DNA from: Deltaproteobacteria bacterium
GTDB taxonomy: Bacteria; Desulfobacterota; Binatia; UBA1149; JAJCZL01
DNA: 64,000 nucleotides
Assembly (NCBI GenBank): GCA_029262415.1
Contig: JAJCZL010000009.1
Span: 1 to 64,000, forward strand
Reading direction: 5' to 3'
Positions 37,003-47,191 of this stretch are shown here, in pieces (the stretch's first letter is position 1; the number at the start of each line of letters is the position of its first letter). The translations under genes and the position numbers were made by a program. Under the pieces are notes generated by a model. That model searched no databases, was not told the origin of the DNA, and was given only the letters and a program-made list of their open reading frames with translations.

Positions 37003-37554
37003 CTAGCGCCAGCCTTCGCCGGACCCGCCGTATAGGTCTGCCATCTCCTCGCGGAGAGCTTCCATGCGCCGCTTGGCCTTCGCCATTTTGTCGATCTGCT
37101 CAGCCGTCAAGAGCGCGCGCACTTCGAGCGCGACGGCCATCCCCTCGCGCATCAAACGCTCACGGATAGGGTTCATACGCGCGATGGCGGCGTCGACATC
37201 GTCCTGGGTCATCACGCCCGGGCCGTATACTTTCGCGCTCATGGCCTCACGTGCTTCGCGCATCTCGGCAAACAAGCCCTCGAAGCTCGGCTTGTGCGTA
37301 CGCATGATCTTGCCGACCTTCAGCTTTTGCTCAGGCGTCAGCTCAGCCTGCTTGAGCAACAGCGGGAGCATACGGCCGGGGCTAGCGCTGGAAGAACCGC
37401 TGAAGCTCGGCGCACCGGAGCCGCGCCCGAACGCTCCATGACTGCCTTCACAACCGAGTTCAGGGCCTCCGCCGAAGGCCGGCGGTGCGGCGAACAGCAA
37501 GGCTACTGCGGCGACTGCGAGCACGCGTGGTTGAATGTATTGTCTCGTATTCAT
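37003..37554 (-). CDS. Spy/CpxP-like periplasmic protein (LTXXQ)
   Basis: A 183-residue exported protein. The signal peptide (VLAVAAVALLFAAPPAFG) is followed by a Gly/Ser-rich stretch and then an all-helical domain with two LTxxQ motifs, LTPEQKLKVGKIMR and LLTAEQIDKMAKAKRRM. This is the Spy/CpxP/CnrX superfamily: periplasmic chaperones or metal sensors that regulate envelope-stress signalling. It is the third gene of the sigma / anti-sigma operon, 17 bp after the anti-sigma gene, with GGAG upstream of the ATG. By analogy with CnrX and CpxP it may feed metal or misfolding signals to the anti-sigma factor; this is inference. Confidence 0.85.
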   Translation of the reverse strand: MNTRQYIQPRVLAVAAVALLFAAPPAFGGGPELGCEGSHGAFGRGSGAPSFSGSSSASPGRMLPLLLKQAELTPEQKLKVGKIMRTHKPSFEGLFAEMREAREAMSAKVYGPGVMTQDDVDAAIARMNPIRERLMREGMAVALEVRALLTAEQIDKMAKAKRRMEALREEMADLYGGSGEGWR

Positions 37555-37571
37555 GTGATTCTCCTCGGCCC

Positions 37572-38228
37572 TCAGCCTCCGACCCCAAACAGACCGGCAA
37601 AATAGTCGGCGTCTGAGAAACCGTACCCCTCGGCGAAACCAAGGCCGTACAAGTCGTCGTAGTGGTCGCCGCCCGATAGCACCGGCATTGATACAGCGCC
37701 CCGCAGCCGCTCGGCACCGCACCCGGACTCCAACGGGTCATCCCAGCCGCAAGGCAAAGCGCCCCCAAGCGCGGCATCCAAGTAAACCGAAGCGTCGAAC
37801 TCCGGCAACGCGGCGCGTGCGATACGCGTAGCCGGTGCACCCTTCAAAGCGATCTCCCGCGGCGGTCGCGAGGGTCCGCCAGTCGCGGCCTCGCCGGCCA
37901 CCTTGGTGCCCTGTGGTTGCACGACATCAGCGAACTGTGTCCACACCATCGCGAACCCGATCACCACGGCAGCGGCGGCCGCGAGAGGCTGCCACAGACG
38001 TGGCGCTGCGGTGCGAACGCGTCGACTACTGTCACGCCTTGCTAACCGCGAAACGGCAGGCTCGGAGAGAGCGTTTCCGATCAATGTCATGTCTTGCTCG
38101 AGACGCCTGAAGCGACGCGCGCACTCAATACAGGAGAGGCGGTGTTCGTCTTCTGCGGTCGAGCCTTCGCCGTACATAACAGCGACGAGGCTTTCGTCGG
38201 ATAAACACTGTCGATTCACACTACTCAT
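37572..38228 (-). CDS. Membrane anti-sigma factor with zinc-finger (HxxxCxxC)
   Basis: A 218-residue protein. The cytoplasmic N-terminus carries HRLSCIEC (residues about 30-37), the zf-HC2/ZAS motif that grips ECF sigma factors. One transmembrane helix follows (LAAAAAVVIGFAMVWTQF, about 80-97), then a periplasmic tail ending in a Gly/Asp/Tyr-rich stretch (DHYDDLYGLGFAEGYGFS) with CGW and SGCG cysteines that might bind metal. ATGAGTAG at 38228 overlaps the stop of the sigma gene, so the two are translationally coupled; an ATG 12 bases upstream is an alternative. Confidence 0.85.
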   Translation of the reverse strand: MSSVNRQCLSDESLVAVMYGEGSTAEDEHRLSCIECARRFRRLEQDMTLIGNALSEPAVSRLARRDSSRRVRTAAPRLWQPLAAAAAVVIGFAMVWTQFADVVQPQGTKVAGEAATGGPSRPPREIALKGAPATRIARAALPEFDASVYLDAALGGALPCGWDDPLESGCGAERLRGAVSMPVLSGGDHYDDLYGLGFAEGYGFSDADYFAGLFGVGG

Positions 38229-38745
38229 TTTCGCTTTCATTCAGCACGTCGCGCAACGCGGTGATCGCACGGAACAGGTGCGTTTTGATGCTCCCAGCAC
38301 TCAAGCCGAGCTGCTCTGCAACTTCTTCGGTGCTCCATCCTTCAAAGTGACGAAGTAGGAAGACCTGGCGTTGACGTTCGGTGAGTTCGCCGAGCGCAGC
38401 GTGGATCCGTTCGCGTTGCTCGGCGTCGAGCAAGCAGCGTTCGGGGCCTCGGCTGTCATTCTCATGAAAGGACTCATCGAACTCATCGGTTCTCCGGTAT
38501 TGGGTCTTCCACCAGCGCCCGCGACGCACGTCGTGGCAAGCGTTGATCGCGACGCGCGCCAACCAGCGCCGTTCGTCAGCTCCATCGGGTGGGGGGGTCG
38601 CCGCAACCTTGATGAACACGTCCTGGCAGACGTCCTCACCAAGTTCGGCATCACCGAGCACCAGCCGACACAGCCGCGCAATCCCGTCCCGGTGGGTTGC
38701 AGCCAACGTCGCCTCGCGGGCGTGTGCTTTCGGGTCCTTCCTCAA
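38221..38745 (-). CDS. ECF-type RNA polymerase sigma factor
   Basis: A 174-residue sigma-70 of the extracytoplasmic-function group: region 2 (LCRLVLGDAELGEDVCQDVF and WLARVAINACHDVRR) and region 4 (LGELTERQRQVFLLRHFEGW, then EEVAEQLGLSAGSIKTHLFR). The start is TTG at 38745 with GAGGT about 10 nt upstream; a stop lies just before it in frame. It heads an operon with an anti-sigma factor and a Spy-like protein. A bipartite ECF-like promoter stands at 38788-38817, which would make the operon self-regulated. Confidence 0.92.
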   Translation of the reverse strand: MRKDPKAHAREATLAATHRDGIARLCRLVLGDAELGEDVCQDVFIKVAATPPPDGADERRWLARVAINACHDVRRGRWWKTQYRRTDEFDESFHENDSRGPERCLLDAEQRERIHAALGELTERQRQVFLLRHFEGWSTEEVAEQLGLSAGSIKTHLFRAITALRDVLNESENE

Positions 38746-38787: not shown

Positions 38788-38817
38788 TAGACGAGGCGCG
38801 CGCCGAATTGGTTGACA
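38788..38817 (-). promoter_or_regulatory. Bipartite ECF promoter of the sigma operon
   Basis: On the reverse strand TGTCAACC (38817-38810), a 16-nt spacer, then CGTCTA (38793-38788). An AAC-containing -35 and a CGTC -10 at 16 nt are typical of ECF promoters. Transcription would start about 35 nt before the TTG start of the sigma gene. The same GTCAACC-N16-CGTCT occurs at 46594-46621. Confidence 0.7.
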
Positions 38818-40451: not shown

Positions 40452-40745
40452 ATGGGTACGAGACTCGACAGCAGCACGCACCTCTTGCATGAACCGCGCC
40501 TGAACAAAGGAACCGCGTTTACAGGGGAGCAACGCGACCGTTTGGGTCTGCACGATCGTAACGAGCGGCCGTGCTACCGCACGGGGCGGGAGAACATCGT
40601 GGGCCTTGTGCCGGTTCTCTTTGCCCCGAGCGTCGGCGAGGCCTACAAACGCTTCTCACACATACACCGCCGCCCGACCTACGCGCGGCAAGCGAGTCGG
40701 CAATCTACGACCCGTCCTATTAATAGAGGTGGCAGCTTTGGATGA
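40452..40745 (+). pseudogene. N-terminal remnant of NAD-type malic enzyme
   Basis: An open frame of 97 codons with a ribosome site (GGGAGAG) just before its ATG. HLLHEPRLNKGTAFTGEQRD and RLGL match the start of the malic enzyme N-terminal domain. Then HDRNERPCYR and VPVLFAPSVGEAYKRFSHIH followed by RRP match a later part (family form: QDRNETLFYR...[23 protein letters not shown]). About 35 residues normally lying between are deleted in frame, and everything after RRP is missing, including the NAD domain and catalytic Lys/Asp. It is enzymatically dead, but may still be translated between TetR and the QEGLA gene. Confidence 0.75.
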
Positions 40746-42021
40746 ACTCACGCAAGTCCGCACGCTCTCTGAACGGTTGGTCGAGGCACAAAGCGGAATC
40801 CGGATTCTCGATGCGATCAAGTGGGACGACGGCATCCGCGCGGCGTTCTTGGCCGACGGCTGCGCCCGCCAACCGCCAGTCGATCGTGCCTACTACGCGC
40901 GGCGCCCGCTCGGGTTCGAACCGGATGAAGTGCGTGCGCGACTTACGGGAATCGAAGCGGATCTCGGACGAACCCTTGGCCCCACACACCCGGCCGCACG
41001 ACTCATGACGCAGATGTGCACAGAGTACCGTCTAGTCCTGGACATGCTCGAAGCACGCGGAACGCCCCGCTTCGCCGCGCTGGCGGGCGGACTGTACGGA
41101 AGATCAAGCGACCCGTTCCACACCGACGGGCCGTCGGTCGCCGATCTTGGAATTCTCCTAAATGATGCTTTGATCAGCATCGACGCCGGAATGTTCCTTG
41201 AATCCGACCCCAAAAATCTCAGCGCCGACGACGGTGCGGCGCTTTTGCGCGAACGCTTACGCCCATTGTTCGCCGGAGCCGCTGCCGATATCTGCGTGCG
41301 CATCAGCGACGACATCGTCGCCGACGCCGCAGCCGGCGCCGACTACATCAAACTTCGCTCCGATGCCTTCTTTAGCGCACGTGAGCTTCGTGCTCTGGAG
41401 GTACACGAAGGCTGGGTCCACGTCGCGACCACCCTCAACGGCCGTGCACAACCCTGGTGCACGTTCCTCTCCAAAGGAACGCCGTCGACGACGGTGACCC
41501 AAGAGGGTTTGGCGTTCTTTGTCGAGATCGTCTCGTTCAGCTCGCATCCTGCGCGAATCCGCCGCGTCGCCGATAGAATCCGCTGCATCAATGCGGCCGA
41601 ACACGGGGCGACGTTCTTGGACGTATTTGTGATGCTGGTCGAGGAGGGCCGTACCAGAGAGGACGCCTACGCTACCGCGGTCCGTGTGTTCCGAGGAAGC
41701 ACCCCGGATGGCGGCCCGTTCACCAAGGACCTCGCATACGGCAAAGGCTTTGTGCAGATCTACAACTTCATGCGGCTCGCGGTTAAACGCGGTCGAATTG
41801 ACATGATACCGCTGTTGTTTTGCGGAAAACTACGACTGGAGCAGATCGGCGTACTTGCAGAACTGCGTGACCGTGGACTGCTCGGCGAGCCCAAATTGCT
41901 CCCGCCCCAGTTCGCCGACCTCAACGCACTGACCGCCTGGATGACGTTCTCCAACTTCTTCAACCGCATCGATTTGCCTCTTGTAGAGAGGGATTTAGCG
42001 GCAATTTTCGCAACGGTATAG
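40738..42021 (+). CDS. QEGLA-motif protein (DUF1704), putative zinc metallopeptidase
   Basis: About 427 residues. It contains VTQEGLAFFVEI, the motif that names bacterial flavohaemoglobin expression-modulating QEGLA proteins (DUF1704), and upstream HEGWVH, an HExxxH zinc motif, followed by WCTFLSKGTPSTTVTQEG with the third ligand Glu. The same HExxxH+E arrangement is used by the eukaryotic DUF1704 tubulin carboxypeptidases (MATCAP/TMCP), so peptidase activity is plausible. No signal peptide. TTG at 40738 has GAGGTGG upstream; GTG at 40729 is the alternative. It overlaps the malic-enzyme remnant slightly. Confidence 0.82.
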   Translation: MDELTQVRTLSERLVEAQSGIRILDAIKWDDGIRAAFLADGCARQPPVDRAYYARRPLGFEPDEVRARLTGIEADLGRTLGPTHPAARLMTQMCTEYRLVLDMLEARGTPRFAALAGGLYGRSSDPFHTDGPSVADLGILLNDALISIDAGMFLESDPKNLSADDGAALLRERLRPLFAGAAADICVRISDDIVADAAAGADYIKLRSDAFFSARELRALEVHEGWVHVATTLNGRAQPWCTFLSKGTPSTTVTQEGLAFFVEIVSFSSHPARIRRVADRIRCINAAEHGATFLDVFVMLVEEGRTREDAYATAVRVFRGSTPDGGPFTKDLAYGKGFVQIYNFMRLAVKRGRIDMIPLLFCGKLRLEQIGVLAELRDRGLLGEPKLLPPQFADLNALTAWMTFSNFFNRIDLPLVERDLAAIFATV

Positions 42022-46593: not shown

Positions 46594-46622
46594 GTCAACC
46601 GCCGTGAAGGGGGCTTCGTCTG
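46594..46622 (+). promoter_or_regulatory. Second bipartite ECF promoter, upstream of the His-rich protein gene
   Basis: GTCAACC (46594-46600), 16-nt spacer, CGTCTG (46617-46622). It matches the sigma-operon promoter in all seven -35 bases, the spacer length and five of six -10 bases. Transcription would start near 46630 and give a leader of about 85 nt with a small GC hairpin before the gene at 46715. Confidence 0.65.
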
Positions 46623-46714: not shown

Positions 46715-47191
46715 ATGACTACAGCGAAAGCCAAACCGATTAGCGCGGCCGTGACGGCCTTTGCGTTTGCAGCCACCACGCTGATCGCCGCCCCTGGGGT
46801 TGCGATGGCCGAATCGTCGCGCAACAACCATAAGAACTACGGCTACAGCGGCGGCCATAACTCAAGGCCCCAACATGGGTCGTATAACGGCGGTCACCGA
46901 TCGGGATCGCACCACGACTCCTATCGAGGGTCACAGCACCGTCCGTGGTATCGACCGGCACCGCACTACTCCTACAACGACGCCCAGCGCAGACCCTGGA
47001 GCGGCGGACACGGGTATCGCCCGCCTGCCCACCGACCGACTCCTCGTTGTTACAGCCGCAGCCACGGGCACGCCTATGGGCAGCCGCATGGCGACTACAG
47101 ATACAGGACCTCCTCGCACCACAACCACGTCGGCGAGGTAATCGGAGCGTTTGCGCTGACAGCGGCAGCAGTTGCAATCCTCACCCACTGA
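46715..47191 (+). CDS. Secreted His/Gly/Arg/Ser-rich protein
   Basis: A 158-residue protein with a clear signal peptide (AAVTAFAFAATTLIAAPGVAMA). The mature part is low-complexity, rich in His, Gly, Ser, Arg and Tyr with repeated motifs such as SGGHNSRPQHGSYNGGHRSG and SRSHGHAYGQPHGDYRYR, and only one cysteine. It ends in a hydrophobic stretch (VGEVIGAFALTAAAVAIL) that may insert in a membrane. Roughly 20 histidines suggest metal binding. AGGAGGTG precedes the ATG. An ECF-type promoter lies upstream and a terminator follows at 47218, so it is a single-gene unit. I know no family match. Confidence 0.75.
   Translation: MTTAKAKPISAAVTAFAFAATTLIAAPGVAMAESSRNNHKNYGYSGGHNSRPQHGSYNGGHRSGSHHDSYRGSQHRPWYRPAPHYSYNDAQRRPWSGGHGYRPPAHRPTPRCYSRSHGHAYGQPHGDYRYRTSSHHNHVGEVIGAFALTAAAVAILTH

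Follow-up and report, generated by a model that had tools for sequence, protein, structure and literature searches.

A conserved cassette of ECF sigma factor, anti-sigma factor and Spy-fold protein as a candidate envelope-stress switch in Binatia

Three genes on the minus strand (37003-38745) of the window, by which we mean the whole 64,000-nucleotide stretch of Binatia DNA analysed here, encode, in this order, an ECF sigma factor, an anti-sigma factor and a Spy-fold LTxxQ protein. This order persists in different genera and families of the class. We propose that this cassette may well represent a self-amplifying envelope-stress switch, in which Cpx-like logic is run on an ECF sigma factor and the Spy-fold protein would bind the anti-sigma factor. 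It appears to be a variant of known ECF systems, whose novelty lies in joining an ECF factor and a zinc-motif anti-sigma factor to a Spy-fold component that lacks the CnrX metal site, together with a common promoter.

Where a Spy-like gene neighbours an ECF gene, its annotation can read periplasmic heavy metal sensor, as is the case in a Sphingobium locus (L206) and, in the excerpted text of PMC12826043, in an operon of Azospirillum brasilense. Here, a chaperone-type role is argued for because the metal site of CnrX is absent from the Spy-like family. Further, the common promoter motif offers a direct handle on both the regulon and the third gene's role as a partner. The A. brasilense operon, described in the same excerpt as comprising RpoE8, a hypothetical protein and a periplasmic heavy metal sensor and as up-regulated, has the same gene order as the cassette by annotation alone (PMC12826043). 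Apart from this operon, a literature search whose coverage excluded most subscription journals found no study of the cassette.

Layout and conservation of the cassette

The ECF sigma factor (174 aa; 38745-38221, minus strand) matches Pfam Sigma70_r4_2 (7e-20) and Sigma70_r2 (1e-8), and scores 232 bits against the cassette ECF profile A3, a profile that includes the window protein itself; its start is taken as TTG and is uncertain. Its stop overlaps the start of the anti-sigma gene (218 aa; 38228-37572, minus strand) in ATGAGTAG, and an alternative upstream ATG at 38240 would give an anti-sigma factor of 222 aa. Between the anti-sigma stop and the ATG of the Spy-like gene (37554) lie exactly 17 bp, which include GAGGAG on the minus strand. 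The three genes, with their overlap and gap, stand as the preliminary description had drawn them. The genes identified next to the cassette encode a TPR protein and an NlpC/P60 protein, neither being an efflux gene. Elsewhere in the window, positions 40606-42021 (plus strand) encode a QEGLA/MATCAP family protein (TIGR02421, 351 bits, above its cut-off).

Conservation was assessed with the anti-sigma factor as bait, the loci of the class being found by anti-sigma similarity alone. A single-sequence search matched 20 of 98 relatives, and two of the matched loci (L020, L021) showed no cassette; a profile search matched 40 of 148 genomes of the class and 24 of 395 of the phylum, with the window's own genome counted each time. 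The class yielded 44 places, of which 33 were read as loci. All 33 have the ECF gene beside the anti-sigma gene. The Spy gene directly adjoins the anti-sigma gene in 31, or in 32 when a locus split over two overlapping contig ends is counted; there, the contig with the anti-sigma gene ends, and the contig with that genome's Spy gene starts with identical bases. No Spy-like frame lies downstream of the anti-sigma gene in the cassette of genome G482 (L152). Of the 11 remaining class places, coordinates put a Spy match no more than 400 nt downstream in six. Outside the class, the Spy gene accompanies the anti-sigma gene in 19 of 20 loci (L114 has no Spy gene by profile), and the ECF profile finds an ECF gene in 12 of these 20.

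When 21 stretches, each some 10 to 22 kb long, were compared, only the three cassette gene families held a fixed position. Two other families, each present in nine of the 21, were scattered, and further clusters were frames that overlap the ECF gene. By profile, the window's own genome has just one Spy-like gene, that of the cassette. The arrangement is more than chance because this sole genomic Spy-like gene sits here and the same order is found in 32 of the 33 loci. The preliminary description had offered a Spy-like gene that is not conserved with the pair as grounds for giving up its reading; instead, the two go together in nearly every class locus that was read. The idea that the Spy-like gene is a chance neighbour, unrelated to the sigma/anti-sigma pair, is refuted by this persistence across genera and families and by the loci outside the class; nothing was found in its favour, and we regard its probability as negligible.

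A tblastn search of a plasmid collection with two Spy-like proteins gave no match. The 16S gene of the window's own genome reaches at most about 78% identity among 25 listed of 561 plasmid records. Relatives of the ECF factor occur in 26 plasmid records; of the four that were opened, three are FecR/TonB-receptor loci and one is a Sphingobium copper locus. In the latter, a copper-resistance locus (L206, Sphingobium yanoikuyae pSES220), the order is CnrYXH-like: a small hypothetical gene, then one for a periplasmic heavy metal sensor, which lies directly before the sigma gene. Within the class, L215, L216, L222, L223, L224, L226 and L228 have a Spy-like gene followed directly by another ECF gene, like the X-H order of CnrYXH.

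The Spy-fold protein and the comparison with Cnr

The third protein (183 aa; 37554-37003, minus strand) is predicted to have the four-helix fold of Spy, CpxP and CnrX. Its N-terminal hydrophobic segment reads, by eye, as a signal peptide. It carries two LTxxQ motifs in the manner of CpxP and Spy, LTPEQ (72-76) and LTAEQ (149-153), whose glutamines, Q76 and Q153, are invariant in 20 family members. PF07813 is matched at 25.2 bits in the genome scan (cut-off 24.3) versus 23.4 for the protein alone. PF13801, a family named Heavy-metal resistance, is matched at 25.3 bits by the window protein, below the 29.2 cut-off, and at E 0.01 or better by all 20 aligned family members. Searched against the PDB, the family profile also hits Spy (E 9e-8).

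The AF2 model has a mean pLDDT of 78.5, with residues 61-170 at 88-97 by block. The Foldseek search is led by CnrX, then Spy and CpxP, at E 0.02-0.1 and probability 1.0; the CnrX chains that come first (E 0.02, probability 1.0) place the protein among the Spy-type folds to which the sensor of CnrYXH belongs. VIA Z scores are 10.8 for CpxP (2.3 A over 111 residues), 10.4 for ZraP, 10.2 for CnrX and 9.6 for Spy, to be read beside unrelated bundles that reach 9.9. In distant cassettes outside the class (L112, L113, L115, L120, L121, L123, L126), the Spy-like N-terminus resembles, by eye, a membrane anchor and not a signal peptide.

Both the cassette and CnrYXH consist of an ECF sigma factor, a membrane anti-sigma factor and a Spy-fold periplasmic protein, and the window ECF factor is 30% identical to its Cnr counterpart over 148 columns. 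A Cnr-like metal sensor, in which the Spy-fold protein would bind a metal ion and free the sigma factor through the anti-sigma factor, is invited by the leading place of CnrX in Foldseek, by the PF13801 matches throughout the family, by the His-rich character of the candidate second target described below, and by the Gly/His/Met-rich N-terminal linkers of several relatives' Spy-like proteins. We nonetheless consider such a sensor improbable. Among its 33 residues, the linker of the window protein has just one His and one Cys, and it lacks Met. The identified neighbours are not efflux genes, unlike the cnrCBA genes beside cnrYXH, and the gene order is sigma, anti-sigma, Spy, where Cnr has Y-X-H.

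The ligands themselves point the same way. For this comparison, the CnrYXH sequences were taken from Cupriavidus metallidurans pMOL28. The metal ligands of CnrX, whose residues were checked in the CnrX sequence, we take to be His42, His46, Glu63, His119 and Met123. Met123 is named as a ligand in the excerpted text of PMC7689651. The profile match between CnrX and the Spy-like family is weak (E 9e-4, probability 22). Glu63, His119 and Met123 of CnrX align to M84, V141 and V145, while His42 and His46 fall beyond the alignment and are extrapolated to L63 and L67. None of the 20 family members has His or Glu in any of these five columns; Met occurs in the 63 and 84 columns. The metal-site reading was marked down on this ground.

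The anti-sigma factor likewise appears unrelated to CnrY, to which it has no significant BLASTP similarity (E 7.4). CnrY is given as a class II anti-sigma factor in an extract of PMC7406223, and its sequence lacks HxxxCxxC; the window anti-sigma factor has the Cys/His/Cys/Cys set. Judged on the sequences, the likeness to Cnr is one of parts list and not of sensor chemistry. Of the Cnr/Cpx-like signalling cassette originally suggested, the conserved unit, the Spy-fold third gene and a common promoter are retained, whereas the Cnr half finds no support in the ligands, in CnrY or in the gene order.

The anti-sigma factor and its periplasmic tail

The window anti-sigma factor has no match in Pfam. 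Its Cys8, His29, Cys33 and Cys36 are invariant across 22 aligned sequences, and His29-x3-Cys33-x2-Cys36 gives it, next to an ECF gene and in what would be its cytoplasmic domain, the HxxxCxxC of zinc-motif anti-sigma factors. It matches RsiW weakly by profile (E 0.06), and zf-HC2 is matched by two of the 22 family members. The AF2 model (mean pLDDT 66.3) has helices at 11-55 and 79-99, the second of which fits a single transmembrane segment. The putative periplasmic tail that follows is mostly unstructured in the model, with one short helix (146-154) at low confidence.

This tail had been described as rich in Gly, Asp and Tyr, with two cysteines, and as perhaps the sensing part. Its composition is borne out: the cysteines are Cys160 and Cys170, and the 48 residues after Cys170 include 12 Gly, 5 Asp, 4 Tyr and 4 Phe. 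This Gly/Asp/Tyr-rich end is absent from the relatives in the 22-sequence alignment, and is therefore unlikely to be a common sensing part, a reading that was set aside. What is conserved, according to the alignment, the cysteine counts and the low-confidence AF2 helix, is a region at 37719..37793 (minus strand) that holds the predicted helix ASVYLDAAL (146-154) and Cys160/Cys170. A short helix of the Y-L-x-A-A-L type recurs, by eye, in the tails of relatives. The conserved pieces of the tail, as aligned, are thus the short helix and, usually, a cysteine pair. The tail is acidic in 31 of the 33 loci. The Spy-like proteins have net charges of -6 to +4, with no clear positive match to it.

Tail cysteines number at least two in 24 of the 33 loci, one in two and none in seven. 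Four loci with a weak or absent adjacent Spy gene all lack the tail cysteine pair (p 0.003), an association that may reflect a single event because all four come from one family. The cysteines bring in a further possibility, less probable than the switch we propose, namely that the Spy-fold protein is an output only. The anti-sigma factor would then sense alone, through its cysteine pair (redox or a thiol-binding metal) or because proteases attack its tail; the operon would simply supply a chaperone. The 24 loci with at least two tail cysteines agree with this, and Caulobacter provides a precedent: according to the excerpted text of PMC3511200, SigF-regulated genes rise when the two periplasmic cysteines of NrsF are substituted. 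As described there, the SigF-NrsF system of Caulobacter crescentus resembles the cassette in these two conserved cysteines and in a related promoter, GTAACC-N16-CGAA, and differs in that the excerpt mentions no Spy-fold gene (PMC3511200). The seven tails that lack any cysteine speak against an anti-sigma factor that senses by itself. Moreover, a plain target need not remain in the operon, yet 32 of the 33 class loci keep Spy beside the anti-sigma gene.

A common promoter motif and a candidate second target

The cassettes of the class mostly have a common putative promoter motif. Upstream of the ECF genes, no 7-mer is more enriched than GTCAACC, found in 17 of 34 against 0.64 expected. The extended form GTCAACC-N16-CGTCTA occurs at a score of 4 or better in 28 of the 34 cassettes (0.9 expected in shuffles) and at 3 or better in 21 (0.05 in shuffles), counts that describe a common motif and provide no independent test, because scoring used the very upstream regions from which the consensus had been read.

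The strict form, GTCAACC-N15-TCGTCTR, has two sites in the 3.9-Mb genome of the window, and the reversed pattern has none. One is the cassette promoter motif itself (38788..38816, minus strand). The other (46594..46622, plus strand) lies outside long reading frames and is a candidate regulon site. Starting 92 nt after it, an orphan His/Gly/Tyr-rich, secreted-looking protein of 158 aa (46715..47191, plus strand) has 17 His, 16 Gly and 12 Tyr in its last 126 residues. This protein is probably a second target of the cassette ECF factor in its own genome. It has no Pfam match. Matches among relatives come from six other genomes of 143 at E 0.01 (best 2e-5) and are not convincing. Across 21 other genomes, the strict motif occurs four times, always inside reading frames, and the reversed pattern twice. 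A relaxed motif has 15 matches in the window's genome against six for the reversed pattern, most of the 15 without a clear gene start behind them.

A proposed mechanism

Of the known systems, Cpx appears to offer the logic that fits the cassette better than Cnr. In E. coli, CpxP is a Spy-fold protein with two LTxxQ motifs that serves as an accessory partner: as given in the excerpted text of PMC4160245, its binding partner is CpxA, a misfolded pilus subunit displaces it, and positive charges in its cavity are named as important. The Cpx system uses a sensor kinase and a response regulator, whereas the window has an ECF sigma factor and an anti-sigma factor; the cassette would work like Cpx without being a member of it.

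By analogy, the anti-sigma factor would hold the ECF factor at the membrane, with the Spy-fold protein seated on the conserved part of the acidic periplasmic tail, where the helix and cysteines lie. The Spy-fold protein may be drawn off the tail when envelope proteins misfold, or under metal or redox stress, after which the anti-sigma factor would be inactivated, perhaps by proteolysis. The freed ECF factor could then transcribe the cassette operon along with a very small regulon, and newly made Spy-fold protein would act as both chaperone and feedback brake.

A bolder extension, which we advance only tentatively and hold to be rather doubtful, is that such cassettes represent a separate class of ECF switch. 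Here, a Spy-fold chaperone without the CnrX metal site would cap a helix of the anti-sigma tail and be able to come off it; the helix would be paired with cysteines and might be gated by a disulfide. Protein misfolding and periplasmic redox state would then be read through one sigma factor. The regulon would comprise two or three transcription units, for Spy proteins and, in this genome, a lineage-specific His-rich secreted protein.

Spy genes outside the cassettes

In cassette genomes, the motif (score 3 or better) precedes 12 of 29 fetched non-cassette Spy genes, against 0.16 expected in shuffles of 30 scored regions. The 30 regions take in two cassette Spy genes (L187_10043, L025_5577) and omit L235 (score 6), giving the corrected denominator of 29; two Spy places of genome G521 were left out, and the site counted in L189 is as far as 322 nt upstream. 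Such non-cassette Spy genes carry the motif as plain targets would, which agrees with a Spy-fold protein that is an output only.

In genomes first taken as cassette-free, the motif precedes five of 16 Spy genes (Fisher p 0.75). One of these controls, G057, carries a cassette ECF gene cut by a contig end, and its reassignment gives 13 of 31 against four of 15 (p 0.35). Two control genomes are 80% and 88% complete, and two have another ECF gene, then a gene without the zinc motif, then Spy genes. A test of the exact -35 element gave 12 of 31 against one of 15 (p 0.035), but was chosen afterwards and is to be discounted. Because the difference between cassette and control genomes is not significant, the dependence of a Spy regulon on the cassette ECF factor is unproven and serves as a lead only.

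In G482, the genome without an adjacent cassette Spy gene, a Spy gene elsewhere carries the motif (L246, score 1). Extra Spy-like genes, each with its own copy of the motif, lie near the cassette in L180 (8606), L024 (7088), L187 and L247. In L225 (1-1525) and L227 (minus strand, 3316-1190), another ECF gene precedes a gene that lacks the zinc motif, and two Spy-like genes come next, with the motif GTAAACC...GTCTA.
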